Positions 5,717 through 46,390 of a stretch of DNA of 64,000 nucleotides are shown here, one piece after another. Under the pieces are notes generated by a model. It saw nothing but the letters and a program-made list of their open reading frames with translations, had not been told where the DNA came from and ran no database searches. Every line of letters begins with the position of its first letter. Position 1 is the first letter of the stretch. The DNA lies in the IMG/VR virus record IMGVR_UViG_3300025073_000039, positions 1-64,000 of that record; one strand, given 5' to 3'. Source of the DNA: a virus. The translations under genes and the position numbers were made by a program.

Positions 5717-5763
5717 ATTATATCATATTTTTCTTTACTTGTCAAGTGGTGAGCTGTGGATAA
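5717..5763 (-). promoter_or_regulatory. Module promoter: DnaA-box-like site, palindromic -35, TATAAT (minus strand)
   Basis: On the minus strand TTATCCACAG begins at 5763, TTGACA occupies 5745-5740 and TATAAT 5722-5717 with a 17-base spacer. The -35 lies in cACTTGaCAAGTa. This is one of five copies of the same module. It drives the operon from 5650 down to 1453. Confidence 0.85.
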
Positions 5764-6261: not shown

Positions 6262-6309
6262 TTATCCACAGGGGGCATGCTTGACAAGTGAACGAAACTG
6301 TGTTATAAT
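6262..6309 (+). promoter_or_regulatory. Module promoter: DnaA-box-like site, -35, TATAAT
   Basis: TTATCCACAG begins at 6262, TTGACA is at 6281-6286 and TATAAT at 6304-6309 with a 17-base spacer. The palindrome around the -35 is partial here (gCTTGaCAAGTG), and the box-to-minus-35 gap is 10 bases rather than 9. It drives the structured RNA at 6381-6482 and the replication genes beyond. Confidence 0.85.
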
Positions 6310-8572: not shown

Positions 8573-8619
8573 TTATCCACAGCTTGACACTTGACAAGTG
8601 AACGAAAGTGTGATATAAT
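8573..8619 (+). promoter_or_regulatory. Module promoter: DnaA-box-like site, palindromic -35, TATAAT
   Basis: TTATCCACAG starts at 8573, the palindrome CACTTGaCAAGTG spans 8588-8600 with TTGACA at 8591-8596, and TATAAT is at 8614-8619 (17-base spacer). Transcription should begin near 8626, almost on the ATG at 8628. Confidence 0.9.
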
Positions 8620-11500: not shown

Positions 11501-12340
11501 ATGGACGAATCAAACAAAACAAAATTAGTAATTTCCGGAATCGTATTAGTTGTCGCGTTAGTCGTTCTCGCGATTGTGAATCCATTTGTAGTCATCGCTG
11601 CCGGTTATAAAGGCGTGGTGCTCCACTGGGGTGCAGCGCAAGATAAGTCCCTTGACGCTGGCATTCATTGGGTGACCCCAATTTCGGAGAGTGTGGTTAA
11701 AATGGATATTCGTATCCAAAAAGAAGAAGTGGAAGCGTCAGCCGCATCAAAAGATTTACAAGTCGTAACATCAAAGGTGGCGATGAATTTCCATCTCGAT
11801 AGTGATAAAGTTAACCAACTCTATAAGAACATCGGTAAGGACTATAAGGAGCGCGTGATTGATCCTTCAATCCAAGAAGCGGTGAAATCAGCGACAGCAA
11901 AGTACACTGCCGAAGAGCTTGTCACTAAACGAGAGTTGGTTAAAGAAGACATCAAAACGTCTCTTAAAAGCCGATTGGCCACTGACTACATTATAGTGGA
12001 CGAGCTAAACATAATTAACTTTGACTTCTCGCCATCGTTTAACGCGGCGATTGAAGCGAAAGTGACGGCTGAGCAGAATGCCCTTGCTTCTAAAAATAAA
12101 TTGGAGCAAGTGAAGTATGAAGCGGAACAGCGAATCGCGACTGCTGAAGCGGAAGCTAAATCAATTCGTCTTCAGTCAGATGCCGCGAACAATGAAAAAT
12201 TTATTTCATTAAAAGCGCTTGAAGTGCAGTTGGAATTTGCCAAGCACTACAAGGGTGATATGCCTCAGACGTTATATATCGTGGCAGGAGCGAATGGGAC
12301 TTTGCCTGGGCCGTTAGGGATATTGAACCTTAATAAATAA
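11501..12340 (+). CDS. Prohibitin/stomatin-like SPFH-domain membrane protein
   Basis: The product is 279 residues. An N-terminal transmembrane helix (about 9-31) is followed by the SPFH domain: AGYKGVVLHWGAAQDKSLDA, GIHWVTPISESVVKMDIRIQ, then VVTSKVAMNFHLDSDKVNQL and DPSIQEAVKSATAKYTAEEL. The C-terminal coiled coil (EQNALASKNKLEQVKYEAEQ and on) ends in LYIVAGANGTLP. This is a full-length prohibitin homologue. In bacteria these form large membrane rings that modulate FtsH-type proteases and membrane organisation. A phage copy could protect or remodel the host membrane or protease, as an inference. Confidence 0.88.
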   Translation: MDESNKTKLVISGIVLVVALVVLAIVNPFVVIAAGYKGVVLHWGAAQDKSLDAGIHWVTPISESVVKMDIRIQKEEVEASAASKDLQVVTSKVAMNFHLDSDKVNQLYKNIGKDYKERVIDPSIQEAVKSATAKYTAEELVTKRELVKEDIKTSLKSRLATDYIIVDELNIINFDFSPSFNAAIEAKVTAEQNALASKNKLEQVKYEAEQRIATAEAEAKSIRLQSDAANNEKFISLKALEVQLEFAKHYKGDMPQTLYIVAGANGTLPGPLGILNLNK

Positions 12341-22519: not shown

Positions 22520-22566
22520 TTATCCACAGCTTGACACTTGACAAGTGAGCAAAAGTATGGTATAAT
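22520..22566 (+). promoter_or_regulatory. Module promoter: DnaA-box-like site, palindromic -35, TATAAT (recA)
   Basis: TTATCCACAG begins at 22520, CACTTGaCAAGTG spans 22535-22547 with TTGACA at 22538-22543, and TATAAT is at 22561-22566 with a 17-base spacer. It drives the structured leader and recA. Confidence 0.9.
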
Positions 22567-24506: not shown

Positions 24507-25970
24507 ATGAAATTTCGATCGGGGAAATCAGTCGGTCAAAAAACTGTCAACTTAGCAGGCGGAGAAGCATTCAAGCAATCTCCTGAACTTGAATTGGTGT
24601 CTCTGCTTTTGACTTCGTTTGTAAAAGATAAATTTTACGAATCAGGCAATGACCAATTAGACAGATTGGCGTTGATCGTTAATAAATTAGCTGATAAGAA
24701 ATTCGCCGGTCAAGCCGCGATTTATGCGCGTAACGAATTTGGCATGCGCAGTATCACCCACGCTTTGATTGGCGAGATTGTCCATATTGTTAAAGGCCAA
24801 GAGTGGGTGAAGAACGCGGTAACGCGCACTGTGAAGCGCCCCGATGATATGCTTGAGATGTTGGGCTACTTTGGCTCAAAACATTCTGATAGTGCCATTC
24901 CGAATTCTTTAAAGAAAGGGCTGCGTTTGGCGGTAGGCAAATTCGATGCTTACCAGCTGACTAAATACAAAAGCTCCAGATCGGATGTAAAAATGGTAGA
25001 CTTGTTTAACCTCGTCCACCCTAAACCGGTGGATAGTAGGGCTGCTGATGTTTATTCCAAATTAATTAATGGCGAATTAAAAAACACTGAGACTTGGGAA
25101 GCTAAACTTTCCAGTGCCGGCCAAGAAGTAAAAGAAATGGCCGATGGTGCTGATAAGGAAGAGAAGCTGTCTGAGTTAAAAGAGAGTGCATGGCAAGAAT
25201 TGTTAGAGAGTAAAAAGTTGGGCTACTTCGCTTTATTGCGCAACTTGCGCAATATCAGTCAGCAAGCGCCTAAACTTATTCCGCTTGCGATTGAGCAACT
25301 CCTTAACAAAGAAGCCATTCAGAAATCCCTGGTAATGCCTTTCCGCTTCCAAACGGCTTACAAAGAACTGGATGAGGCCGGTGTAAGTCGAAAGTTATTG
25401 GATGCGCTAAACGATGCGACCGAACTGTCACTCTCTAATGTGCCGAAATTCGCTGGTAAGACTTTGATAGTCCTCGACACCAGCGGTTCGATGCAGGGCG
25501 ATCCGTTAGACATTGGTTCATTATTTGGCGCGGTGTTGTTTAAAGCAAACGCTGACGCAGATTTAATGACGTTTGATGACGACGCTCGGTATGAGAAAGG
25601 CATCAGCGGTAAAGATTCGCTCTTGACGATCGCTGAGAAGTTGCGCAAACACGACGGTGGCTCAACCAACTTCCACGATATATTCATTAAGGCTAAAGAG
25701 AAGTATGATCGGATCGTGATTCTGTCTGATATGCAAGGGTGGAGCGGTGGCTACGACAACCCTACTGGAGATTTGCAAACTTATAATAAAAAGTTTGGTG
25801 CCGATCCGTTCATTTATTCGTTTGATTTAGAAGGACACGGTACGCTCCAATTCCCTGAGAATAAGATTTTCTGTATTGCTGGTTGGTCTGATAAAATCTT
25901 AGGGGTAATGGCGCTTCTGGAAGAAGACAAAAACGCGTTAGTCAATAAAATAAAAGCAATAGTACTTTAA
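24507..25970 (+). CDS. rsr: Ro60/Rsr protein (TROVE and vWA domains)
   Basis: The product is 487 residues, a little shorter than human Ro60 (538). Residues 1-300 match the helical-repeat TROVE ring: FKQSPELELVSLLLTSFVKD, AAIYARNEFGMRSITHAL, RPDDMLEMLGYF, KYKSSRSDVKMVDLFNLVHP. Residues 318-487 are a von Willebrand A domain with a full MIDAS (DTSGS 324-328, T387 in GGSTNFHD, D408 in LSDMQGW). Ro60 rings bind misfolded RNAs in the central cavity and Y RNAs on the outer surface; Y RNAs gate access and tether partners such as PNPase. Here it is flanked by Y RNA-like elements, an arrangement typical of bacterial rsr loci. Confidence 0.92.
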   Translation: MKFRSGKSVGQKTVNLAGGEAFKQSPELELVSLLLTSFVKDKFYESGNDQLDRLALIVNKLADKKFAGQAAIYARNEFGMRSITHALIGEIVHIVKGQEWVKNAVTRTVKRPDDMLEMLGYFGSKHSDSAIPNSLKKGLRLAVGKFDAYQLTKYKSSRSDVKMVDLFNLVHPKPVDSRAADVYSKLINGELKNTETWEAKLSSAGQEVKEMADGADKEEKLSELKESAWQELLESKKLGYFALLRNLRNISQQAPKLIPLAIEQLLNKEAIQKSLVMPFRFQTAYKELDEAGVSRKLLDALNDATELSLSNVPKFAGKTLIVLDTSGSMQGDPLDIGSLFGAVLFKANADADLMTFDDDARYEKGISGKDSLLTIAEKLRKHDGGSTNFHDIFIKAKEKYDRIVILSDMQGWSGGYDNPTGDLQTYNKKFGADPFIYSFDLEGHGTLQFPENKIFCIAGWSDKILGVMALLEEDKNALVNKIKAIVL

Positions 25971-26221: not shown

Positions 26222-26360
26222 ATTTTCTGGGTAGCGATAGAAAAGTTACTTCGACTTATAATCGAGTGGTCGCTTGTTCGAGTCAAGCCGGCGCCTTCGG
26301 GAGCCGTAGCTCAGTTGGTAGAGCACTTTTACTTTTCTAGATTTTCTCCCAGTTTAAAAA
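26222..26360 (+). ncRNA. Y RNA with circularly permuted tRNA mimic
   Basis: Stem: CTGGG (26227-26231) with CCCAG (26348-26352), internal loop, AGAAAAG (26239-26245) with CTTTTCT (26332-26338). Inside is a tRNA in permuted order: variable-arm-like TTCGA/TCGAG hairpin (26246-26271), T stem GCTTG, loop TTCGAGT and CAAGC (26272-26288), acceptor strand CGGCGCC, a TTCG loop, acceptor strand GGAGCCG (six of seven pairs match), TA, then D arm GCTC-AGTTGGTA-GAGC (26309-26324). The T- and D-loop contacts (GG with TTC) are intact. This is the tRNA-mimic design of bacterial Y RNA such as YrlA. Confidence 0.85.
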
Positions 26361-27021: not shown

Positions 27022-27053
27022 CACTTGACAAGTAAAGAAAAATGTGATATAAT
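27007..27053 (+). promoter_or_regulatory. Module promoter: DnaA-box-like site, palindromic -35, TATAAT
   Basis: TTATCCACAG starts at 27007, TTGACA is at 27025-27030 inside cACTTGaCAAGTa, and TATAAT is at 27048-27053 with a 17-base spacer. The first gene starts at 27084. It drives the SSB-like and SbcCD genes. Confidence 0.9.
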
Positions 27054-33501: not shown

Positions 33502-36500
33502 TTATATCGGATTCGCTTCGTAATAAGGCTTGGCAACTTCTGGAGTATCGTTAAAGATGAATGAAAGTCGGACCTGAAAGGAAGTATGAGAGTCTTCGTA
33601 TCCACCCCAATTAGAAAGATTACTCTTCTTGGCGGTTAGAAGCCAAACAGCTATCGTCCTTTTCTGCTCTTCTGTCATATTTGGCGCGACACTGTAGTAA
33701 TAGTCAGTCACTTCGTCTTTTACTCCATCTTTAATCTTTTTTATGGCCGCTTTATTATCCTGCTTGACAGACATTATTTCTTTAGATCCTTCATCTTTTT
33801 TCTTAGAGAAGAAAGACAAATAGTCTTTTACGACTGGATCGCTTATCGGCGCACGTTGAATATTATTATCAGCGAAATATTTTTTTACATTATTCACTCT
33901 CGCGTCGTGGGTAAACTGTTGTTCCTTAGCTGATAAGCGCTCTGGAAATTCTGGTAAATTAGATACAAGTTTTGCAATAACATCAACAGGGCCCGGTTTC
34001 TGTCGTTTTGAACCGATATTCTTCCAATACACGGCGAACGCGTTCTTCATTTCATTGTACCTGTCTTGGCTGAATCCTTTACTACTATCAGCGTAGTCAT
34101 AAATAGCCTGCCGTTCAGAAAGGCTATCAAAGAAGTTTTTAGCTGCTATATTATGCGGCACTCCTTTAGGTGCATCAAAAAATTTATTTCTCAATAAATC
34201 AGACAACTTACTGACACCACCATTGGATAGTTCCTTATCAAGATTGGATTTCTTTACAGCGTCAGTGGAAGCATTGCTCATGTATTCGGTAAAGGCGTAT
34301 AGTTTTTGGTTACGCTGCTCCAGCGTTTCTCCCTGCGCTGGCTTTTTCAATTTCCATCCGCCGATGCTTTCGTCGTTGTCCATAATGCCTTGTATCACGC
34401 GCCTGAAAGTAGAATTCTCTCCGACAGATTGGCCGCCTTTTACTGCTTTCTCTGCTAAATCCATACTATTTTCGAACGTAATTGGGCCTTTCTCATAGTT
34501 AGTAAGAGTGGGTGCTTCTTTTCCTCCTTCTCTTTCGAATATGCCTTTCAACTTATTGGCGTATTCTTCTGGGATTTTGAAGTTGCCCCCTTCGGATTTA
34601 CCAACAGCGAAAAGCGGACCAGCGTCTCCATCAGTATCAAAATAAAATTCTCGGTACCCAACTTTATTGTTGACGATCATGCTCTCTCCCAGATCGGTGA
34701 TGCCACGCTCTTCAGCTGATATTACTTTAAAAGGCAGTAGGCCTGTCCTTTTTGTGTTAGGATGTCGCGTCGCCAACACAACTTCCGGGTTACCAAGCTT
34801 TTCAATTGTTTTGTTGGAAAGCATAATAGAATCCTCTGGCACTTCCGCCCATTTACCGTTAGGAGATTTGATAACACCAAAGTCTGGGTAGAATTTACCG
34901 TAGTGCGCCTTTAAGAATTGCCCGTTTAGCACATAATCACGCAGCGAATTATGAAGTGCTAATTCTAATTCGTAGCGGATATCACTTCCGTTCTTTCCCC
35001 AACCACCATTCTCTAAGATTTTTTTAGTTTTGCCATACATGTTCTCCCCTAACGCAGTCTTAAAGATATCCTGATATTCGCTCAGAACCGCGCGCGCTTC
35101 TTTAGCAGTTTTAGAACCATACACAAGTTCGGTAAACGCCTTTTTAAATCGTTCGACTGGTTGAGAGTACATCTCCTCTACAACTTTATTTAGTCCGTCG
35201 GCGTAACCAAACTTACTATTAAGATATGGGGAGAATTTATAATCTTGATCCGGCATCTTTGGGAGTTCATATTTAGCGCGAAAAGCAGACATCGGGAATT
35301 CCCCGACGTAGTAGTTTGGTTTGCCTTCGCCAAAGTTCTCTAGTATCTTTGTGCTGATTTTTACGTTGTTATGTGACGTAATATAGTCGCCTGGTTGAAA
35401 TTTATAATTTGGGATATACTGTCTTACGTATTCTTCTATCCGCTCTGCGGTCGCGCTGTCTGGCTTGACGCCGAATAATTCATTTTTTATAATGTTTGGT
35501 TTGCCGTCTTCGCCTTTAAACGTTATTACATTTTTATTAGTCAAGTACTCCTCTGGTTTATGGAGGTACCCGCCTTCTTTGTTAATTCGGATCATGTCAT
35601 CGGTGTGCACAAAGGAAGCGCCATCAACTATCTCATGTTTGTTGGCGTCTTTGCCAAAGTTAATGACGATTAATCTTTTTTTAACGTTACTATCGTTGAT
35701 CGGTTTAAATTCTGCGAAGTTGAACTCCTTCCAGCGCTTGTTCAACACTGCTTTGTCGTCAGTTTTGCTTAAATTAAGTACATTACTGATAATAAAATCA
35801 AAGAATTTATCTGTTCCTTCTTTAATATTCTTGCTACCGCCGATAATAGGGTCGTACTTAATTCCGAATAAAGTATCAGCAGAATTGCCGGTAGCCCCAA
35901 ATGGGACATATCCAGCTTCATATAATTTATTTTTTAAATCCGATATGCTCATTTTTTTACGCATCTTACTATCAACTTGAACCTTCATCACATCTAAATC
36001 AGTCCCGCGCTCTTTGTTGAATTGTGCTAACGATTCGTCTATAAAACTAGCCGGTTGAGGAGTGCGCTCGATCACGGAAGTTTTTGTAGGTGTGACCAGT
36101 ATCGCTTTATCCGGAACGCTTTGAGCGGTTCTCTTAAATAGCGATTTCAGAGCAGCTTTAGACTTTCGCCCAGTGATTGGCGTGTCTATGCCTAATTTTT
36201 GGTAGTTTGACTCTACGCTATTAATAAATTCATTAAACGCGTGGTCTTCGTTGCCATTGTATTTGTTAACCAGTTCTTTTGATTTAACATACATCTCTTC
36301 TGCCGACAGAGATTTTTTAATACCTTCCGCTACCTTTATTTGTTCTGGGGTGGCCTTAACTTCTGACAGTTTTTTATCGATATCGTCGCTTAAACCCTTA
36401 ATTACTCCTTTCTCGTCAAAGCGTCTGAAATCTCGGATGTTAACTTTTTCTGTTGCCGGAGCTGGCTGCGGATTTTTCATTGCCAGTTCTACTTTCGGTT

Positions 36501-39500
36501 CAGCGGTAGAGAACAGATCAAGTTGTTTTGTGTCGTAGAATTTGTTTTCTGTTGCTGGCGCGGTAACCTTAGGAGCGGTTTGAGGAGTAGTCTGCGTAGG
36601 GCGTGAGGCCAATAGCGTCTTCATTTCTTCAACAACAGCTTCTTTCGGTTTGGCTTGTGGCGCAATTTGAGGTGATTGCTGCACGGTCTCTTGCTTAGGT
36701 GCTATGGTCACGCTCGGTTTAACAGCCGACTTAGTCGGAGTAGTAAATGTCTTAACAGCGTTATTCGCTGCGTCAGACACACGTTGAGTTTTTTCTTCGG
36801 CGCTTACATTAATTATTTTGTCGCGCACCGGCTTACCTGGGTTAATAGTGTTTTCAGTTTTATTATAAATTGAAGAAAGCATGTCCATTTGGCCAGCAGC
36901 TTTTTTCTCTTTCATCATCTGCCTTACTTCCCTGGTCAAATCTTTCTCCGTCACCGGTTTATAAGATAGCACTCTTGATTCAGGTTTTTTTATTTCTGGC
37001 AAAGAAAGTTCTAACTGTTTGGCTTGCCGTATCGCTTTCATCGTATCTAAAATACGGTCTACCGTGATCGCTTCTTTGCTCGAAATTCCAATATTGCGCA
37101 ACACAGATTGAGCGTCCATGTTATTGCCGAGCGTGTCTGTGCCCATCTTAATAACTATAGCTGGTAGACCCGACTCCACGTTCTTGGCTTCAGCGAATGA
37201 AATCTGCACTATTCTAGCGCTGATCCCATTCTGTTTCATACTATCGTAAATAGTGTCTTTATTAACATCCGAATCGTACAATTCAGCTGGTAAATTTCTT
37301 TTCGCAGCTACACTAAGTTGTTTTTGGTTCATCTGCTCAGCGATATTCGTTTTACTCGGAGCATACCCAAGATTTAAAAATTCTCCATTTTTATACGCGA
37401 CAAGAGCAAGATGCTTTTCAGCACTTTCTCCTGCCAGTTTCCCGGCCTGTTTTACGGCATATGTAATTTCTGGGTTATCAACCAAAAATCCGTACTGAGG
37501 GTTGTTAGGATCATAAACAAAGTCAGAAGCAAATTTGATCTGGTTGTCTTTAATGATTCCGTCTTTACCCTGTGATGTAATTTGCAAATAAGACGGGCGC
37601 ACTGTGTTGCCCTCAGCATTAATATAATTATCTTTTGCGCCAACAAATTTCTTTTCAGAAGCATTTTTAAACGCGACTGGATCTGACTCAGCTGTTATTA
37701 AAGGCATTTTTCTTTCTCCAATATCAAATAAATCCTTGTTGCCTTCGATAAATCTAACGCCAGCGTCAGGTACAAGTTTAATGCGGTGCGTCGGTAAATC
37801 AATGCCATTGTCTTTATTAAGTTGCTCCCAGTTAACTTTTGATTCAGCATCTAAAGCAATTACCCTGTCAATTTTAGGGGATGTATTCGCAACGGCAATA
37901 TTTTCCAACCACCGAGAACCGGCAATTAGCTTGCCAATTTCTTGGTTCATTTTTACCTCATCAATTTCGCCATTGTGGTATGCTTTAATTATTTCTGATT
38001 GCGCACGTACATTATCGTTCATTAAATCGCTGCCGTATTTCATTCTTTGCTCTAAGGCAGACCCAATCGGAGGGGGCTCAGTAGCTCTTATTTTAGCTCT
38101 GCCTAACCACAAATTGCGCTGCCCAAGAACAGAATCGGTCGCTATCTTTTCTGCGTCTGTGGCGATACTTCCCTTAGCTTGAGTAGCGACACCGACTCCA
38201 TGAAGGCCGCCCATAATAGCACCGGATAAAAGAGCATTATCAACATCTCCTGAATTGATATACTCTATCATCATACCGGCGAACGCGGCACCGAATGCGC
38301 CTTTTACGCTCATAGGAAGGCCAGAGAGAGACAAGGCCATGGAAGTGTCAGTAAATACACGTCTTGCGCGGGACCCCTCTTCGTCTTGTTTACTTAACTG
38401 CCCGACAGTATTAAAAATTAAAGCATTTTTCGCTGCAGTCTTGCCATATCCCTTTAGCCCTGGCGCAAGCATTTTTGCTATTATCGGAACAGCTGTAGAA
38501 GTTCCTTTCGGCTGAACGTATTTAGCAGCGAGCGCCGGCTTAGATTCATACTCCATGATCTTGGCTAATTTTGTAGCGCCGGAAGTAACAAGCGGAATTT
38601 TCCTTGCTGAGGCGACATACTTAAAGCCATTCAGTAGTAATCCTTCTACGGCTTTAAATGACGCAATTGCGCCTGCGACATGGCCAGTGACATTCGCGAC
38701 GCTATTGGCTGTTTTTTCCCATTGTGCCTCCACTGTCCCTGGTTTAGGAGCGGCAGCCGGTAAATCAAAATAGCCGAATGTCATTCCGCTTAACACACCT
38801 TTTGTAAACGCCGAAGTCATCGGAGGCATTATGATATCCAAACTCTTAGCGGCATCGGCTTTAAACGATGTCCACGTCTTTTTAAAGGCTTCAGGGATAC
38901 CGGTTATGGCGTCTTTTATGCCGGTTGGTGTTACTGTTTCCCACTTCTTTTTATACTCTTCAGCAATCTTAGTTGGCAAAATAATTTGTTCATTACCAAA
39001 TTTGTCTTTTATGGTTTCTTTTTGGTCTAAGTTTACACCGGCGACGTCTTTGTCTTGCCAGTTAAGCGAGAGAGCCGTGGCTTCATTTTTACTGATTTTA
39101 CCGGCGGTATATAACGCGCGCGCGACTTCGCCTACTTTAGTTTTTTTATCGTGGTCAAAAATATTTAGGACTTGTTTATTTTCCAACGTATCTGATCCTT
39201 CTAACCAGATTGGGTAAATATGGTCTACTTGATATAGGGATGATGATCTACCGCCCAAGAGAATATTTTTTTCGATCTGCTGCTCTGGAGTTTCAAAGCG
39301 CCTTTCTGATTTTAAATACGCGCTTGGATTTGTTGGGTCATAAGCATACTGGCCCCCGCCGACAAACTTGCTTAAAGTGGCAAATTTAGCAGATACTGGC
39401 TGCTGCTTAACATAATTTGGATCAAAAGTATACCCAGGATAGTTTTCTTGGATATTTAAACTCGGAACAGATTTTTCAAATTGCACGCCAGCTACAGTTT

Positions 39501-39654
39501 TTTCCGGTAGAGCCGCGGGAATATTCTTGAATTTGCTAACATCTATCGGCTTAGCGCTTTTTAAATATGTGCCTGGGGCTTTTAGCACTTGCGCTGCTCT
39601 CTGCCCAACCGTTGCTTGATTGTAACTTGTGTTAAGCGGCAGTTGATTGGCCAT
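33502..39654 (-). CDS. Giant 2050-residue virion protein with two-barrel RNA polymerase motifs
   Basis: Layout: an HNH-like segment at residues 140-170 (YQVDHIYPIWLEG...N); hydrophobic helical stretches around 280-480; Pro/Thr-rich linkers near 950-1120; and a region with the motifs of two-DPBB RNA polymerases. Barrel 1 has DGASFVHTDDM (D1344) and FKGEDG (K1380). Barrel 2 has LATRHPNTKRTG (R1630) and the catalytic-like DTDGDAG (D1673, D1675, D1677). The 43-residue interval from the arginine to the acidic motif resembles QDE-1/YonO/crAss RNAPs. The size is like the virion RNAP of crAss-like phages. It is the last late gene, next to putative ejection proteins. Probably packaged and injected. 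Confidence 0.72.
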   Translation of the reverse strand: MANQLPLNTSYNQATVGQRAAQVLKAPGTYLKSAKPIDVSKFKNIPAALPEKTVAGVQFEKSVPSLNIQENYPGYTFDPNYVKQQPVSAKFATLSKFVGGGQYAYDPTNPSAYLKSERRFETPEQQIEKNILLGGRSSSLYQVDHIYPIWLEGSDTLENKQVLNIFDHDKKTKVGEVARALYTAGKISKNEATALSLNWQDKDVAGVNLDQKETIKDKFGNEQIILPTKIAEEYKKKWETVTPTGIKDAITGIPEAFKKTWTSFKADAAKSLDIIMPPMTSAFTKGVLSGMTFGYFDLPAAAPKPGTVEAQWEKTANSVANVTGHVAGAIASFKAVEGLLLNGFKYVASARKIPLVTSGATKLAKIMEYESKPALAAKYVQPKGTSTAVPIIAKMLAPGLKGYGKTAAKNALIFNTVGQLSKQDEEGSRARRVFTDTSMALSLSGLPMSVKGAFGAAFAGMMIEYINSGDVDNALLSGAIMGGLHGVGVATQAKGSIATDAEKIATDSVLGQRNLWLGRAKIRATEPPPIGSALEQRMKYGSDLMNDNVRAQSEIIKAYHNGEIDEVKMNQEIGKLIAGSRWLENIAVANTSPKIDRVIALDAESKVNWEQLNKDNGIDLPTHRIKLVPDAGVRFIEGNKDLFDIGERKMPLITAESDPVAFKNASEKKFVGAKDNYINAEGNTVRPSYLQITSQGKDGIIKDNQIKFASDFVYDPNNPQYGFLVDNPEITYAVKQAGKLAGESAEKHLALVAYKNGEFLNLGYAPSKTNIAEQMNQKQLSVAAKRNLPAELYDSDVNKDTIYDSMKQNGISARIVQISFAEAKNVESGLPAIVIKMGTDTLGNNMDAQSVLRNIGISSKEAITVDRILDTMKAIRQAKQLELSLPEIKKPESRVLSYKPVTEKDLTREVRQMMKEKKAAGQMDMLSSIYNKTENTINPGKPVRDKIINVSAEEKTQRVSDAANNAVKTFTTPTKSAVKPSVTIAPKQETVQQSPQIAPQAKPKEAVVEEMKTLLASRPTQTTPQTAPKVTAPATENKFYDTKQLDLFSTAEPKVELAMKNPQPAPATEKVNIRDFRRFDEKGVIKGLSDDIDKKLSEVKATPEQIKVAEGIKKSLSAEEMYVKSKELVNKYNGNEDHAFNEFINSVESNYQKLGIDTPITGRKSKAALKSLFKRTAQSVPDKAILVTPTKTSVIERTPQPASFIDESLAQFNKERGTDLDVMKVQVDSKMRKKMSISDLKNKLYEAGYVPFGATGNSADTLFGIKYDPIIGGSKNIKEGTDKFFDFIISNVLNLSKTDDKAVLNKRWKEFNFAEFKPINDSNVKKRLIVINFGKDANKHEIVDGASFVHTDDMIRINKEGGYLHKPEEYLTNKNVITFKGEDGKPNIIKNELFGVKPDSATAERIEEYVRQYIPNYKFQPGDYITSHNNVKISTKILENFGEGKPNYYVGEFPMSAFRAKYELPKMPDQDYKFSPYLNSKFGYADGLNKVVEEMYSQPVERFKKAFTELVYGSKTAKEARAVLSEYQDIFKTALGENMYGKTKKILENGGWGKNGSDIRYELELALHNSLRDYVLNGQFLKAHYGKFYPDFGVIKSPNGKWAEVPEDSIMLSNKTIEKLGNPEVVLATRHPNTKRTGLLPFKVISAEERGITDLGESMIVNNKVGYREFYFDTDGDAGPLFAVGKSEGGNFKIPEEYANKLKGIFEREGGKEAPTLTNYEKGPITFENSMDLAEKAVKGGQSVGENSTFRRVIQGIMDNDESIGGWKLKKPAQGETLEQRNQKLYAFTEYMSNASTDAVKKSNLDKELSNGGVSKLSDLLRNKFFDAPKGVPHNIAAKNFFDSLSERQAIYDYADSSKGFSQDRYNEMKNAFAVYWKNIGSKRQKPGPVDVIAKLVSNLPEFPERLSAKEQQFTHDARVNNVKKYFADNNIQRAPISDPVVKDYLSFFSKKKDEGSKEIMSVKQDNKAAIKKIKDGVKDEVTDYYYSVAPNMTEEQKRTIAVWLLTAKKSNLSNWGGYEDSHTSFQVRLSFIFNDTPEVAKPYYEANPI

Positions 39655-39655
39655 A

Positions 39656-42142
39656 TTAGATTAGAATTTTATTAGGTTGGAATTGGTCCATGATGATAAA
39701 GAGCATATCGTCTGGGCTAAAGTCGGCCACTTTATTTTTCTTCCATTCGGGATTATTCACGTATTGTGAATTTGCAGCGCCGGATAATACACTATCAACA
39801 GTTATTTTGTCTTGGCCCGCCAGAGGGTTACTCTTAACGAAGCTCACAACAGAGTCTAAAACCCCCTCGTTAACTGATCCAGAAAAACGATTCTTCCAGT
39901 CTGAAAGAAATTTGTCATCGCTGACTTCGCCCCAAGTCCGCGGCTTATTTAGACCGGATGTTTTTAATGATAGATCCTTTAACGCGGATAAAACATTATT
40001 AGAAGCGTTCTGGTCGCTCCACAATTGGCTTTTCAGTTTATTGTATATACCGGATTGTAAGGAGCTCAGAAGCTGTTGCGTATTCGCTTTAACAATTTCA
40101 TTAATACTACCCCGCTCATCGCGTCCAGCTTCATTCCAAAATTCTTTAATACGGTTAAGGTAAACATCAACCATCTGTTTAAATGTGGTAGAGCCGGCTG
40201 ATGCGGTCGCTAGTTGTTGCGCGTTATTTCTTATCTCGGTACCGTAGGCCTCAAGAACCCCGTTTGGATCGAGTGACCTTGCGCTATCGCCTTCGGTTAC
40301 TTTAGATTGGGCGGCAAAATCAACTAACGCGGCAAGATTGCTGTCGCTAATCGCTATCTTTTTTTGATAGTCCGCCGGATCAGGTACTTGGACTTGGTTG
40401 CTGACAGGGCTATTGCTTAATATTTGTTCGTATTTGTCCCAGTCTTTTTGGATGTAATTACCAGTGTAAGTTCCAAGCGTAGTTTGACCAAGCTCGGCTG
40501 ATTTTTTCATTACATCAAGATAGAGGGACTGCTTCTCAAGTTCGATCGAATCTCGGTTCGCCATGTTAGTATAAAGGTCTTGGAGCATCGCGTCTAAGCG
40601 GCTGTAAACTGCCTGCGCTTGCGTCTGGTCATTCTTAAATCTGTCTAATTCATCTTGGAATTTAGTCCAGTTGGTGTCGTATAAGCTTTTTAGTTGCTCG
40701 GTCTGTGTATTATAAAGATTAATAGATTGGTTCGCGAAATCAATATAACGCTTCTGTTGGCGCCCCTTTAGAATGGTCAAATAATTCATGTAATTTGACA
40801 CGTCTTTTTGTCTTGAAGGATCAGCCATGTCCATGCCTTTCATCTGCTCTTTGGCTTTATCCATCATGCCGTTGATACCATTAACCACTTCGTCACGCGT
40901 AGCAATATAAGTTTTCAGGTCTTCCCCAAGGGTGTTCCCAGCGGTAATACGCGCCAAAAGTTGGTTCTGAATTTCGTTGATTTTGTATTCTTTTTTGTAT
41001 TTATCGATTACGTCGTTCGCGTTACCGAACAATAAATTGCTATCCGGTAGAGAGTTTTCTGGGATACCAAGATACTTCGCTAATTCACTTTTACGCGCTG
41101 GCGAAAGCATACCCTGAGAGAATGTAACAGGGCCAACGCCTGCTTCAAGCGACTGGTCTAAGAAGCTAAGACCGGTATCATAAGACGCTGGCGCGGCAGG
41201 CGTAGCGCCACTGAAATCCATTTTTGTACCAGCAGAGAACGACTGAGAACCTGTAGGGGCTCCGGTTTGTCCTCCCGATAATCCCGGTACAAAATAATCT
41301 CCGGTTTCGCCAGATGGGAGAGGTTGGTATTGAGACGGTTGTGCTCCAGTTGCTCCCGGCGCCACGGTTGATGTAGCCGCGGCCGGTTGCGCAGTCGTTT
41401 GTTTTGATTTTTTTAGAGTATTAATAGCGCTAAGTAATTGCTGATTGACCGTAGCCTCAGACGCGCCGGGAAATTTACTGCGGAGTTGTTGGGCGGCATC
41501 GCTTGCTTTAAATCCATCTTCGACAATCGCTTTAGCCGCTATTTGAATACCGCTATTAAATTGCTGCGGCACAAGATTCGGAAGAATTGGGCCGCTGAAA
41601 AATTTCTTTAATGCTTCAGTCGCCAAAGTTGTTTTTGGCATAGTGACGAATTGGCTACCTAATCCTGGTTGCGTACGCGCGATATCAACAAGTTTTTTTG
41701 CGCCAGTGTCCAAAGCACCGGCAGTCGCAACCGCCAAATTCCCAGCTGTCTGCGTTATCGGTTTATAAATATTTTCAGGAATCCATTGGAAACCTTTGCC
41801 GATGGCTTTGCCGATAGATGTGATACCACTTTTTACTGCGCTTCCGACTGTTGGAGACATTACAGGATTGGGAATTAATAAAGTATTTCTGGACAGTTGA
41901 GCAGGCGCTGGTTGCGGCGCTATCGGCGCTGTTGTCGTAGGATATTCAATCGCTGCACCTTGTCCGTCATCAATATCATGGCCAAATTTATTACTGGCGG
42001 ATGTATTCATAGATTTCAAAATCAACGCAGCTTTTTTACGCTTTGTGCTTCCTGCCGGAGCGTCAAAAGCGTCTCTCAATTCTTTTAGTAGCTGAGGATT
42101 CTTCATTACCGCTTCCATTGTAATAGATTTAGCTTGAGCCAT
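39656..42142 (-). CDS. Large putative ejection/internal virion protein
   Basis: The start MAQAKSITMEA, 10 codons after an upstream ATG that lies in the previous gene, is preferred by context; product 828 residues. The N-terminal 280 residues mix hydrophobic stretches (GNLAVATAGALDTG, SGITSIGKAIGKGF) with Ala/Pro/Thr-rich linkers. The rest is helical and Gln/Asn-rich (LKTYIATRDEVVNGINGMMD, KRYIDFANQSINLYNTQTEQ). Size, helicity and position between the 2050-residue protein and an M23 peptidase are like podovirus internal core/ejection proteins. No sequence family is recognised. Confidence 0.6.
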   Translation of the reverse strand: MAQAKSITMEAVMKNPQLLKELRDAFDAPAGSTKRKKAALILKSMNTSASNKFGHDIDDGQGAAIEYPTTTAPIAPQPAPAQLSRNTLLIPNPVMSPTVGSAVKSGITSIGKAIGKGFQWIPENIYKPITQTAGNLAVATAGALDTGAKKLVDIARTQPGLGSQFVTMPKTTLATEALKKFFSGPILPNLVPQQFNSGIQIAAKAIVEDGFKASDAAQQLRSKFPGASEATVNQQLLSAINTLKKSKQTTAQPAAATSTVAPGATGAQPSQYQPLPSGETGDYFVPGLSGGQTGAPTGSQSFSAGTKMDFSGATPAAPASYDTGLSFLDQSLEAGVGPVTFSQGMLSPARKSELAKYLGIPENSLPDSNLLFGNANDVIDKYKKEYKINEIQNQLLARITAGNTLGEDLKTYIATRDEVVNGINGMMDKAKEQMKGMDMADPSRQKDVSNYMNYLTILKGRQQKRYIDFANQSINLYNTQTEQLKSLYDTNWTKFQDELDRFKNDQTQAQAVYSRLDAMLQDLYTNMANRDSIELEKQSLYLDVMKKSAELGQTTLGTYTGNYIQKDWDKYEQILSNSPVSNQVQVPDPADYQKKIAISDSNLAALVDFAAQSKVTEGDSARSLDPNGVLEAYGTEIRNNAQQLATASAGSTTFKQMVDVYLNRIKEFWNEAGRDERGSINEIVKANTQQLLSSLQSGIYNKLKSQLWSDQNASNNVLSALKDLSLKTSGLNKPRTWGEVSDDKFLSDWKNRFSGSVNEGVLDSVVSFVKSNPLAGQDKITVDSVLSGAANSQYVNNPEWKKNKVADFSPDDMLFIIMDQFQPNKILI

Positions 42143-42146
42143 ATAA

Positions 42147-42728
42147 TTATGAAACTTTCTTATAGAAATCAAATGGGTTAATATATTTGTTGTAAGCGTT
42201 TGTGATTCTGTAATCCAAGTGTGAGCCGGTTCCTCCGTGGAGGCTGTAAGTATTTCCTGTATTGCCCATTCCTCCGATCAAAGTTCCGGGATTAACCGTT
42301 TGCCCAACTTTAACCCAGACATTATTTAAATGGCTATAGCGATGTTTATTGCCTTGCGCGTCTTCGACCAAAACGTAATTACCAGCATTTTTTTCCCCTT
42401 GCGCTCTGCCGGTTTTTAAGTCGATCACTTTACCACCGACAAATGATGGAATGGGTGTACCAATTTTATTGGCGATATCAAGTCCCGGATGAAATTTTTC
42501 TATTCTAGTGCCTTCTCCATAATCAGTCGTTAACGTTCCAAGATTAGAAAATTTACCGCCATATTGCGGAGTAGATGATTTCTGTTGTGCAGGAGCATTT
42601 TGTGTAGGCTGCTGGCCCAAATTAACAAAACGGTTAGTATTAATAGATTTTAATTTAGGCATTCTGCTGCTCGCACTAAATGCCATGCTTGTTGCTCCTT
42701 GAAATATTTTATTTGGGTCAAGTGCCAT
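42147..42728 (-). CDS. M23-family peptidase (LytM-type)
   Basis: The product is 193 residues. The M23 core is clear: HPGLD (H80, D84) with FVGGKVIDLKTG, HRYSHLNNVWVKVGQTV (H133), GTLIGGMGNTG and SHLDYRI (H170, D172). The last motif reads HLD where many family members have HLH; similar HxD variants exist, so activity is uncertain. It likely cuts peptidoglycan cross-links during DNA entry, since it lies among large virion proteins and not with a holin. There is no signal peptide. Confidence 0.82.
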   Translation of the reverse strand: MALDPNKIFQGATSMAFSASSRMPKLKSINTNRFVNLGQQPTQNAPAQQKSSTPQYGGKFSNLGTLTTDYGEGTRIEKFHPGLDIANKIGTPIPSFVGGKVIDLKTGRAQGEKNAGNYVLVEDAQGNKHRYSHLNNVWVKVGQTVNPGTLIGGMGNTGNTYSLHGGTGSHLDYRITNAYNKYINPFDFYKKVS

Positions 42729-42736
42729 ATAATTAA

Positions 42737-45700
42737 TTAGAATCCGCGCATCGCTTTTAAGAGCGCCGTGTTGCCAGTTCCTGAAACATAATCATAATTT
42801 TTTATTCCGTAATTTGATGCTAGTTTTTGTCTGTTAGTAAGCGAAGAGTCATATCCGATACCTTTCAAATAATCTACAACAGACGGGCCGGAATAATTTT
42901 TAGGATTATAATTTTTAACTAAATCTGCTGCCGCCTGCGCAGTCTGAGCAGCCGGGGCAGTATAGTCCTGCGTGTTTGGGATAAAGGGATCAATATTTGT
43001 AGTTGTGACTGTTGGCGCAGTAGTCCTCGCAGCGGTCTGAGCTGCTGTTTGCTGTGCAGTCAATTGCTGTTGTAATGTGCTTGCTACGCTTTGCGCGGGG
43101 TTAGTGCCAGCGACCGGTTGCGCCGGTTGTGCGGCCGGTGCGGTATACCCGCTGCTGGCTGGTAAAATTTCGCTTAGAGAAGTCGCTCTTTCACCAATTT
43201 GGCCTTCTGTAAATGGCCGTGCGGCGGCTTCTTCGGCGTCTAAAGAGTTTTGCAAAGCGGTTGCTGTTTGATAAGATGTCTTATCTTTAAGTGTCGTAAG
43301 CCTATTATTCATTAGTGTAGCATTAGTTTCGCTTCTATACAACGGCGTTCCACTACTGGTATCGATATTGGCATCAATTATCGCTTGCAGATAAGCGTCT
43401 GACTCGTTTGGGGCTAGTGATCTGAGGTTTTCCAAAGTAAAAAAATTTAAATCTTCTTGAGAAGGCACAAGAGCCCAAGACTGTAATTCGCTTTGGCTAG
43501 GCGCTGAATAAATTAATTGTCCGTTTTGGTCATAAACGCCATTTTTCATTTCAGTCGCAGTAGCATATTTAAGGAAGTACTCCCTGCGCTTAGCAGTTTC
43601 GTCATCAGTCCTTGTTTGTCTCAGAAGGTCGTCTTGTTTTCTTACGCGCTGGAGCATTTTATCTCTGGCTTCTTGGTGGATGCCGCTCTCATAAATATTA
43701 GCTCCAGACATTGTAGTGCCAAGCGTATTAATTTGATCCCAAGCGTTAAGAGCATTGTCTGCCAGTTTAATTTTGTATTTACTTTCTATCTGCTGCTTCA
43801 ACATGCGCCACTGTTCTTGCGCCAGAGCATGAGTTCTCTCATTATTAGATTCAAGATTTTGCAAAATAACATCATGGTATAATGATTTTATCTTGTCGAC
43901 TTCAGCTTTAAATTCAGGAGAAGTAACATCTAAAAGCGGCGTTAAGAAATTGAACGCTTCTTTTGGTAATTGGAATATTGGTAAATTAAAAACAGAAGAA
44001 TCTTGTTCCGCGTATTGCGCTGGGACAGTAAGAGACGGTATTGAATTTGCAGCTTGACCACCAACAGTATTAGCGTATTCAGTCTTAGATAAGTTAGGAT
44101 TTATGATCATTACGTTAGATACGGAAGGATCGCCGCTCGCTGATAATTCTCGGCGTTTTAAATCTTTAAATACATCATTAAAAGAGTACCCACCATAAGC
44201 CACAGCGTTTAAGTAGAATGCGTAAAGATTAGGATTATTTCTGATGTTGCTAATTGTAGAAGGAGTAACCCCGGCTTGCTGCGCAACAGTTAAGAATCCG
44301 TCTAACATCAGATGCGCATCAGAATTTTTTTGCACAGTTGGCGTCTGATTATAATAATGCGCAAAAGTAATTGAAGCGTCCTGCTTAGCTTGAAACATCG
44401 GGTCTGTACCATCGCTTTGGATTGTGCCACTGGCGTCAGGCGGCTGAGTGAACCCCTTATTCAATAATAGACTAATAGAGATTGTCGGAATTCTACCGGC
44501 AGCGTCTAACTGCTCAACCGTTGCGCCATTAAGAGGTTGGTAATTAGCCACCGCTTCTGGAGAAGCAAATTTCTGAATAGTCTTTGTAGCCGCGTCGATT
44601 AAATATAGATCATTGGGTCGAGTTGGATCTAAGCGCACTACGCCCATTGCCCCACCGTCAAATGTAAAATCATCCCAGTTACCAATATCGGTATAAGAAG
44701 GCGTTTGTGCCGCGGGTGTAGTTGGCTCTTCTACTGGTTCAGGTTCTACATACATTTCTGGGGTTGTACCAGACACGTCTTGTTTGTAGCGTTTTCCATT
44801 AAGATAAACAGCGGCTCCATCAAGATATTTTTCTATCGTCCACTTGCGCCGCGCTTCGTCTGTAATAGTAGAAAAATCAGGTGGCACTAAAGACCAGCCG
44901 TTTGTATCGGTTGTGTTATCTACTGGCGCTGGTGGAATTGTCAATTCTTTTTCAGCTTCCGGGATAGTATTAACACGATCGCCCAGAAGTTCGTTGACTG
45001 CATTCACGGCTTGAGAAGGAGTGTAATTAGCCGCAATGTATTTATCAAGATACTGCTGATATTCACCTGGCTTTAAAGCATTATTTTCTGGCGTCGTCGC
45101 CGGTACAGTGCCATCTGGTGAACCCATTGTCTGCCATTGCTCCCACATTAATGCTTTGTTGGCTTCTGACTTTTCAAATGTCGGTTGTACGTTGCCCCAG
45201 TAAGTTTCAAAGGCGGTGGAGTAGTTTGTGTTAGTTGGAATATTAGTTGTTTGTGGCGCTGCTGGTTGCGTTGAAGTTGATGGAGTCGTAGTCGCGGGCG
45301 CTGGAGTTAAAGAAACACCAGGTACATACACACCGGGCTGGACATACACTACCGCGTAATTATTAGTAGTGTCATAAGCTTTTAAAGTGTTCGTAGCGGT
45401 TGGAGCGGATGTCTTAGCTTGGTTGTTAGTTGTTGTTGTTGGTTGTGTCGCCGAAGACGACTGAGTAGCGGCGGCGATAGATCTTGGGCCCCAATACCCT
45501 GGGCCAGTAGAATTATCTACGCCATTTGCTTCTTGCCATGCTTTTACAGCGGCAGTTGTTTGTGGCCCATAAGTTCCGTAGCCGGTGTTAACTTGCGCCT
45601 GAGTCATGTGGCCTTGGGCGACAAGAAAATCTTGCAATTGTTTTACAGCTGCGCCAGTACTGCCGGGTTGCAGATTAGTTGTTGGGAAATTTACCGTATT

Positions 45701-46390
45701 AACTGTTGATTGCGATTGCGCTGGCGCGTTTCCAAATGAAGCGAGTTGTAAGTCGCTTTCGTGTTTTGCGTCCGACGCAAGTTTATCAAATGGATCTTGA
45801 TAAGTATTCTCCAGATTTGAGATTTGCTTAAAAACTTCAGGCGCGCCTTGAGAAAGAGGTTTTGTAAATTCATCAGTTATTCTCGTGTAAGCTTCTTGCA
45901 TCTGGGTGATATCACCGGCAAGATTGGAGAGGTCTTTACCAGTCGCCAAACGCTCCTCTGCGTTCTTCTGAGCTTGCTGTAAGTCAATCAAATACTGATT
46001 AAAATCACGAGTTCCATCTGGTGTAAAATACTCACTTAATCTCTTTTGCCATTTACCACCAGCGCTCGAACTGCCGCGTGGTTGCCCGTTGCCCAACATA
46101 AAAGTTGATCCGTCAACATTTAAGCCCATATTCAAAGCAGCGTCTGAAGCAAAATTAGGATTAACACGGTTAACAATAGCCAGCTGCTCTGGTATAGAAA
46201 GTGATTTGAACTTACTCATAAAACCAGCGACATCAGGTGGTTTGTACGCTATTAGTTTTTGGGCAAGAGCGATTTGTTCAGGCGTAGCGCCAGCAGCTGC
46301 TTGTGCATCGATTAGAGCTTGAATAGCCGCTCTTTGTTCAGGTGTTAATTGGCTTGATGGCGTATAAGTTCCGAGTGCTTCGTTGGGCAT
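42737..46390 (-). CDS. Large structural/ejection protein with peptidoglycan-binding domain
   Basis: The product is 1217 residues. A peptidoglycan-binding domain 1 lies at about 240-310 (LQPGSTGAAVKQLQDFLVAQ ... GTYGPQTTAAVKAWQEANGV, YWGPRS). Linkers are Thr/Ser/Pro/Gln-rich (residues 310-390, 530-570). Long helical parts follow (residues 800-1000), and the C-terminus is Ala/Gln-rich. This suggests a large virion protein acting at the cell wall during injection or as part of the internal core, together with the adjacent M23 peptidase. Confidence 0.65.
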   Translation of the reverse strand: MPNEALGTYTPSSQLTPEQRAAIQALIDAQAAAGATPEQIALAQKLIAYKPPDVAGFMSKFKSLSIPEQLAIVNRVNPNFASDAALNMGLNVDGSTFMLGNGQPRGSSSAGGKWQKRLSEYFTPDGTRDFNQYLIDLQQAQKNAEERLATGKDLSNLAGDITQMQEAYTRITDEFTKPLSQGAPEVFKQISNLENTYQDPFDKLASDAKHESDLQLASFGNAPAQSQSTVNTVNFPTTNLQPGSTGAAVKQLQDFLVAQGHMTQAQVNTGYGTYGPQTTAAVKAWQEANGVDNSTGPGYWGPRSIAAATQSSSATQPTTTTNNQAKTSAPTATNTLKAYDTTNNYAVVYVQPGVYVPGVSLTPAPATTTPSTSTQPAAPQTTNIPTNTNYSTAFETYWGNVQPTFEKSEANKALMWEQWQTMGSPDGTVPATTPENNALKPGEYQQYLDKYIAANYTPSQAVNAVNELLGDRVNTIPEAEKELTIPPAPVDNTTDTNGWSLVPPDFSTITDEARRKWTIEKYLDGAAVYLNGKRYKQDVSGTTPEMYVEPEPVEEPTTPAAQTPSYTDIGNWDDFTFDGGAMGVVRLDPTRPNDLYLIDAATKTIQKFASPEAVANYQPLNGATVEQLDAAGRIPTISISLLLNKGFTQPPDASGTIQSDGTDPMFQAKQDASITFAHYYNQTPTVQKNSDAHLMLDGFLTVAQQAGVTPSTISNIRNNPNLYAFYLNAVAYGGYSFNDVFKDLKRRELSASGDPSVSNVMIINPNLSKTEYANTVGGQAANSIPSLTVPAQYAEQDSSVFNLPIFQLPKEAFNFLTPLLDVTSPEFKAEVDKIKSLYHDVILQNLESNNERTHALAQEQWRMLKQQIESKYKIKLADNALNAWDQINTLGTTMSGANIYESGIHQEARDKMLQRVRKQDDLLRQTRTDDETAKRREYFLKYATATEMKNGVYDQNGQLIYSAPSQSELQSWALVPSQEDLNFFTLENLRSLAPNESDAYLQAIIDANIDTSSGTPLYRSETNATLMNNRLTTLKDKTSYQTATALQNSLDAEEAAARPFTEGQIGERATSLSEILPASSGYTAPAAQPAQPVAGTNPAQSVASTLQQQLTAQQTAAQTAARTTAPTVTTTNIDPFIPNTQDYTAPAAQTAQAAADLVKNYNPKNYSGPSVVDYLKGIGYDSSLTNRQKLASNYGIKNYDYVSGTGNTALLKAMRGF

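Follow-up and report, generated by a model that had tools for sequence, protein, structure and literature searches.

A putative two-barrel RNA polymerase attached to an HNH ejection-type protein in some members of a phage group

Introduction

Whether a giant late protein may be an RNA polymerase that travels in the virion, and which genes such an enzyme would read, is the question raised by one gene of the virus record IMGVR_UViG_3300025073_000039 in IMG/VR. The record comprises 89,432 bases, of which positions 1 to 64,000 constitute the stretch analysed here (the window), and its two ends have ~127 identical bases in common, which makes it probable that the genome is complete and is either circular or circularly permuted. 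The gene (33502..39654, minus strand), an open reading frame (ORF) with an ATG start, encodes a fusion protein of 2050 amino acids, P0001, and is the terminal gene of a minus-strand late operon, convergent with the plus-strand early genes, including a Rad50-like early gene. A preceding sequence-only reading had taken the product for an injected two-barrel RNA polymerase that transcribes the early genes.

The C-terminal region of P0001

The C-terminal region of P0001 (residues 1139-2050; 33505..36240, minus strand) is very probably a single-chain two-barrel RNA polymerase, as judged from its conserved motifs and from the family matches of its homologues. The region was found in three related phages only, in the proteins P0001, P0002 and P0003. 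Residues 1139-1764 of P0001 align with P0003 at E=4e-10 and the cores of P0002 and P0003 align at E=5e-20, with shuffle z-scores of 21.6 for P0001-P0003, 50.7 for P0001-P0002 and 11.4 for P0002-P0003; by these comparisons it constitutes one homologous domain in the three proteins.

The motifs on which the sequence-only reading had relied were all located where it had placed them and in the same order, with DGASF at residue 1344, FKG at 1379, RHPN (the start of RHPNTKR) at 1630 and DTDGD at 1673, the last two being separated by 43 residues. The RxP motif RHPNTKR (residues 1630-1636; 34747..34767, minus strand) and the catalytic motif DTDGD (residues 1673-1677; 34624..34638, minus strand) lie in a candidate beta'-like double-psi beta-barrel (DPBB), termed DPBB-A (residues 1600-1690; 34585..34857, minus strand), which was characterized by profile, Pfam, shuffle and alignment comparisons. 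The metal-binding DxDxD of two-barrel enzymes is present as DTDGD in P0001 and P0002 and as DQDGD in P0003, and an RxP motif precedes it within the expected distance of about 40-55 residues in P0001, P0002 and P0003 alike. Ten residues are invariant in the alignment of the three proteins (R1630, P1632, K1643, G1651, L1655, G1656, D1673, D1675, G1676 and D1677). Among about 650 ORFs of at least 100 amino acids in six related phage genomes, DxDGD occurs in just these three mutually homologous proteins.

The relationship to known enzymes was revealed through the homologues. In a genome search, residues 1717-1853 of P0003 matched the RNA-dependent RNA polymerase (RdRP) family PF05183 at E=1.2e-4, Bacillus subtilis, the home of YonO, being the sole control that gave a signal. 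PF05183, the RdRP/QDE-1 family, was also the best Pfam match of the P0003 barrel segment (E=0.0032, profile positions 378-514, short of the curated cut-off). P0001 and P0002 gave no match to PF05183, and the verified enzymes YonO, gp66, gp96 and gp64 missed it in the same scan as well. A DPBB-A profile built from the three proteins scored 27.9 against gp96 of phage P23-45 and 27.6 against the YonO-like enzyme of PMBT24, above all 123 decoys (maximum 23.8). In addition, P0003 aligned with the barrel region of gp96 at z=7.0, exceeding all 200 shuffles, with IVLGKEF...IKEGD...RNP...DQDGD of P0003 paired with IVIGKEM...LKEGD...RNP...DFDGD of gp96.

Several results weigh against this assignment. 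The candidate beta-like barrel DPBB-B, with the motifs DGASF...FKG (residues 1343-1381; 35512..35628, minus strand), is only partially conserved in P0002 and P0003 by eye: a DG is common to the three (VDGASF, NDGSQY and IDGKII), automatic alignments disagree in that region so that the alignment is uncertain, and FKG is replaced by FKA or HKG in the homologues, which makes these motifs weak. With a profile of known enzymes P0001 ranked 262 of 740, and P0002 and P0003 slipped to ranks 6 and 9 once DxDGD was masked; since P0001 has no standout profile score of its own, its membership among the known enzymes depends on P0002 and P0003. Probabilities from hhalign stayed below 10 percent, a level at which established family pairs often scored there too. 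Direct searches with P0001 in Pfam, in PHROGs, in the PDB (phmmer and profile) and in phages by tblastn were all empty or noise, the PDB sequence search giving no match.

The sequence-only reading had proposed a structure prediction of this region and its comparison with phi14:2 gp66 and YonO. Two AlphaFold predictions from three-sequence alignments reached a predicted local distance difference test (pLDDT) score of 38 and 35, a low confidence attributable to too few sequences, and Foldseek with the first, poor model (pLDDT 38) returned noise only, as expected. The P0001 family showed no significant sequence similarity to gp66, and the YonO-like profile match mentioned above exceeded the decoys. 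The proposed catalytic core is thus supported by its conservation in two divergent homologues and by the RdRP, gp96 and YonO-like matches; we infer both the barrel fold, which the models did not confirm, and polymerase activity from the sequence pattern.

The N-terminal half and the late-operon neighbours

The N-terminal half of P0001 is common to all seven phages with a family member. An HNH nuclease motif (residues 141-180; 39115..39234, minus strand) contains D144, H145, N159 and H168, which are invariant across six aligned family members, and the motif is also found in the seventh, the L097 protein. P0002 matched HNH families (phrog_6050) at E=4.2e-7, and P0001 on its own reached E=0.21 only. 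A glycine-rich, weakly hydrophobic segment (residues 280-490; 38185..38817, minus strand) is kept in all homologues with hydropathy peaks of only 1.2-1.3, and possibly serves as a membrane or conduit part. Together with a middle domain, the HNH nuclease and the glycine-rich segment appear to make up an ejection-type protein of the whole phage group. A poorly conserved linker rich in Pro, Lys and Ala follows (residues about 880-1130; 36265..37017, minus strand), and a conserved PEVAK tail lies at the far C-terminus (residues 2038-2042; 33529..33543, minus strand).

The genes upstream of P0001 on the minus strand encode an 838-aa protein (39656..42172), probably a second virion or ejection-type protein, with 704-861-aa proteins at the same place in relatives; a 193-aa M23 peptidase (42147..42728; Pfam E=3.5e-20), probably a virion cell-wall hydrolase and the same neighbour in relatives; and a 1217-aa product containing a peptidoglycan-binding domain (42737..46390; PG_binding_1, E=3.2e-7). 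The gene order M23 peptidase, ~700-860-aa protein and P0001-family gene, the last convergent with the Rad50-like early gene, recurs in most relatives examined, and this conserved synteny agrees with the late position among ejection-type proteins noted earlier for the gene. In G005 an HNH/NUMOD3 homing endonuclease replaces the M23 peptidase at that position (L090:3026-3742, plus strand). If P0001 is a polymerase, its packaging and ejection are likely on account of the position in the late operon, the neighbours and the parallels with phi14:2 and crAss001.

Distribution of the polymerase region

Relatives were obtained through portal and terminase searches, which gave many related phage contigs. 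A P0001 homologue was present in six of the 31 records searched, of which G006 and G007 apparently hold the same protein, and L097 was added separately; the six distinct homologues are P0002 (2027 aa), P0003 (2330 aa), P0004 (1798 aa), P0005 (1363 aa), P0006 (1682 aa) and the L097 protein (1547 aa). The C-terminal region with DxDGD is confined to P0001, P0002 and P0003, three of the seven family members. A core profile gave no match in the records of the P0004, P0005, P0006 and L097 proteins, and scans with the core alignment and with single homologues yielded no further core homologues. Scans with P0001 likewise gave no match in genome contigs and, as single-protein scans, no relatives in viral contigs. 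A related terminase is present on one genome-bin contig.

As it is carried by only some close relatives, the polymerase half is an optional module and not a fixed part of the protein. Its evolution was compared in six genomes. Identity within the group is 70-80 percent for the major head proteins (in two phages encoded by split genes) and about 25 percent for the polymerase region. In the portal tree the polymerase-lacking G006 falls within a clade of the polymerase-bearing G005 and G003, with support of 99 for the clade and 69 for the inner branch; gene trees other than the portal tree are weakly resolved. Repeated gain or loss of the polymerase half is the most economical account of this pattern, although six genomes do not prove it.

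Promoters of the early and late genes

The early region contains five near-identical promoters with the perfect sigma-70 consensus TTGACA-17-TATAAT, recovered by motif discovery and scanning, four on the plus strand (6281..6309, 8591..8619, 22538..22566 and 27025..27053) and one leftward on the minus strand (5717..5745). They overlap the palindrome CACTTGACAAGTG. Sigma-70-like sites with at most two mismatches are in total not clearly above shuffles; it is the near-identical sites with a perfect consensus that are informative. The same early promoter class is found in polymerase-bearing and polymerase-lacking relatives. ATGCGTACTTGTGnTAT, a candidate late promoter of a distinct class, lies ahead of late genes (positions 71201 and 80468 of the G000 record, minus strand, outside the window), the late regions of G001 and G002 carry ACTTATGCTATAAT, and extended -10 late promoters also occur in polymerase-lacking relatives. 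Motif discovery in the phage and its relatives detected neither a promoter class marking the polymerase-bearing phages nor a second early motif, a test weakened by the possibility that two-barrel enzymes use short or hidden promoters.

The proposal that P0001 transcribes the early genes therefore finds no support in the sequence, as these genes have host sigma-70 promoters regardless of whether the polymerase is present. The existence of related phages without the polymerase, with early promoters of the same class, argues against an essential role in early transcription; a role in the first minutes or under particular conditions is possible.

Two side observations concern the palindrome. It may be the operator of a phage regulator, and the motif recurs in relatives; in G002 the promoter/palindrome motif is fused to TTATCCAC, which is DnaA-box-like.

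Comparison with known systems

Among the closest counterparts is gp96 of P23-45, a verified virion RNA polymerase that forms one chain with the tape measure protein (PMC10770324). Both are single-chain two-barrel polymerases in a giant virion protein, although P0001 is so placed by prediction, and in both cases some relatives have the polymerase part and others lack it; the GKE...KEGD...RNP...DxDGD series of DPBB-A, described above for P0003, is common to the two. The architectures differ, as the polymerase is N-terminal of the tape measure protein in gp96 and C-terminal of an HNH-bearing protein in P0001. Moreover, gp96 includes its own metallopeptidase, whereas the peptidase is a separate gene here, in a phage with a P22/SU10-type portal. 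The activity of gp96 is proven, that of P0001 predicted.

The polymerases of phi14:2 (gp66) and crAss001 resemble P0001 in size (about 2000-2200 aa) and in an RxP...DxDxD motif. Their genes likewise adjoin those of other large cargo proteins, close to the far end of a late operon that runs towards the early genes. phi14:2 gp66 (g066) was detected in virions by mass spectrometry, and its gene occupies the corresponding place in the late operon; in crAss001, three proteins of the virion are polymerase-associated (PMC10172136). Injection of P0001 would plausibly parallel that of phi14:2 gp66, crAss001 gp47/49/50 and P23-45 gp96. The motif of gp66 and the crAss001 polymerase is DFDID, unlike the DxDGD of P0001, and no HNH half is noted there. 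The terminase and portal lineages differ between the P0001 phage and the crAss-like phages. Membership in Crassvirales was considered and ruled out, since the terminase matches, at about 30 percent, are to other lineages and the portal is of the P22/SU10 type.

YonO has a single-chain two-barrel core with DxDGD, as is predicted for P0001, and differs as a free 839-aa enzyme without a structural fusion (PMC5467207).

A further comparison is with coliphage N4. The N4 virion RNA polymerase is a giant ejected polymerase among ejection proteins (PMC12633501), and its likeness to P0001 is a functional analogy. A search for T7-type polymerases (PF00940) gave no match, but the control genomes were also silent, so absence is not established. 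The N4 enzyme itself is T7-like and not two-barrel.

Proposed role and alternatives

On balance we favour, with moderate confidence, a virion-cargo fusion in which an ejection-type N-terminal half is joined to a C-terminal two-barrel RNA polymerase that is injected and takes part in early RNA synthesis. P0001 would be made late, join the M23 peptidase, the 838-aa protein and the 1217-aa protein in the virion, and enter the cell before or together with the DNA. The predicted DPBB-B half lies N-terminal to the DPBB-A half, the latter bearing the metal-binding DTDGD, and the polymerase would make RNA from the incoming phage DNA during the first minutes. Most or all later early transcription would fall to the host RNA polymerase at the consensus sigma-70 promoters. 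Packaging, ejection and the choice of genes read are the steps that we infer.

A tentative variant, which we consider possible but doubtful, is that the polymerase is a detachable two-barrel module on the HNH ejection protein, carried by three of the seven phages, injected, dispensable for early transcription and used conditionally. Such a conditional use might be first-minute transcription when the host polymerase is unavailable, or transcription-driven DNA entry.

Unlikely, in our estimation, is a two-barrel RNA polymerase that is made late, stays unpackaged and works in the producing cell on late or middle genes, as P23-45 gp64 and YonO do. The distinct class ATGCGTACTTGTGnTAT before late genes would suit such an enzyme, and the host-type promoters of the early genes leave it another role; the similar extended -10 late promoters in polymerase-lacking relatives argue otherwise, as does the arrangement, seen for virion cargo, of a polymerase joined to an HNH/ejection-type half near the M23 peptidase in the terminal gene of the late operon.

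That the region is a decayed polymerase retained as a structural piece of the ejection apparatus seems improbable: its rapid divergence (about 25 percent identity against 70-80 percent for the major head protein) and its absence from several relatives would fit decay, but three divergent proteins retain RxP, the glycine and every one of the three aspartates, which is unexpected of a decayed enzyme. Also improbable, and slightly more so, is that the motifs are coincidental and the region an unrelated fast-evolving virion domain, as the lack of a direct database match for P0001 and the low-confidence structure predictions might suggest; the motifs are conserved in the homologues, and the PF05183, gp96 and YonO-like matches share one register. 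Least probable of all is a DPBB-like core that makes primers or another nucleotide product, as a primase or PolD-like enzyme, rather than transcripts, for although archaeal PolD also has DPBB pairs (PMC10770324) and no enzyme-specific promoter class was found here, the strongest matches at family level are to RNA polymerases, the early region has its own replicative helicase-type protein (by eye) and the P0001 gene is in the late operon.

Other features of the phage group

Further features of the window were recorded on the plus strand. A TROVE/Ro60-like protein (24507-25970; TROVE, E=1.6e-17) is encoded immediately upstream of a YrlA-type Y RNA (26226-26356; Rfam RF02553, 43.2 bits, E=2.6e-8, below the gathering score of 69), and the 'tRNA-Ile(tat)' that ARAGORN predicts at 26229-26298 is probably the tRNA-mimic portion of this RNA. 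An SPFH/Band 7 membrane protein, stomatin/prohibitin-like, is encoded at 11501-12340 (E=2.4e-32).

Conserved genes are interrupted or enlarged in some of the phages. The major head protein gene is split in G002 and G006, and the G006 terminase is enlarged to 924 aa, which probably reflects introns or inteins (G002 L109:7106-9092; G006 L114:4273-8074; G006 L113:14790-17564). A large protein is encoded upstream of the terminase (L002:13481-14974; G002 L109:18180-19997), and in G002 an ORF in this region has an intein-like N-terminus, CRTVDTEILTKRGWKHYTEL, by eye. The product of L003:7831-9054 (plus strand), starting with MCGIIAAFNNEKQPV, resembles by eye a class II glutamine amidotransferase.

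Implications

The concept of a virion polymerase is already known from gp96. What appears to be new is a patchily distributed, divergent two-barrel polymerase situated C-terminal to an HNH ejection-type protein, which would add a very divergent single-chain two-barrel branch, in a new architecture, outside the crAss-like, SPbeta and P23-45 groups. As relatives with and without the polymerase have head proteins that are 70-80 percent identical and the same early promoters, the group may be used as a natural comparison of the purpose that a virion RNA polymerase serves.

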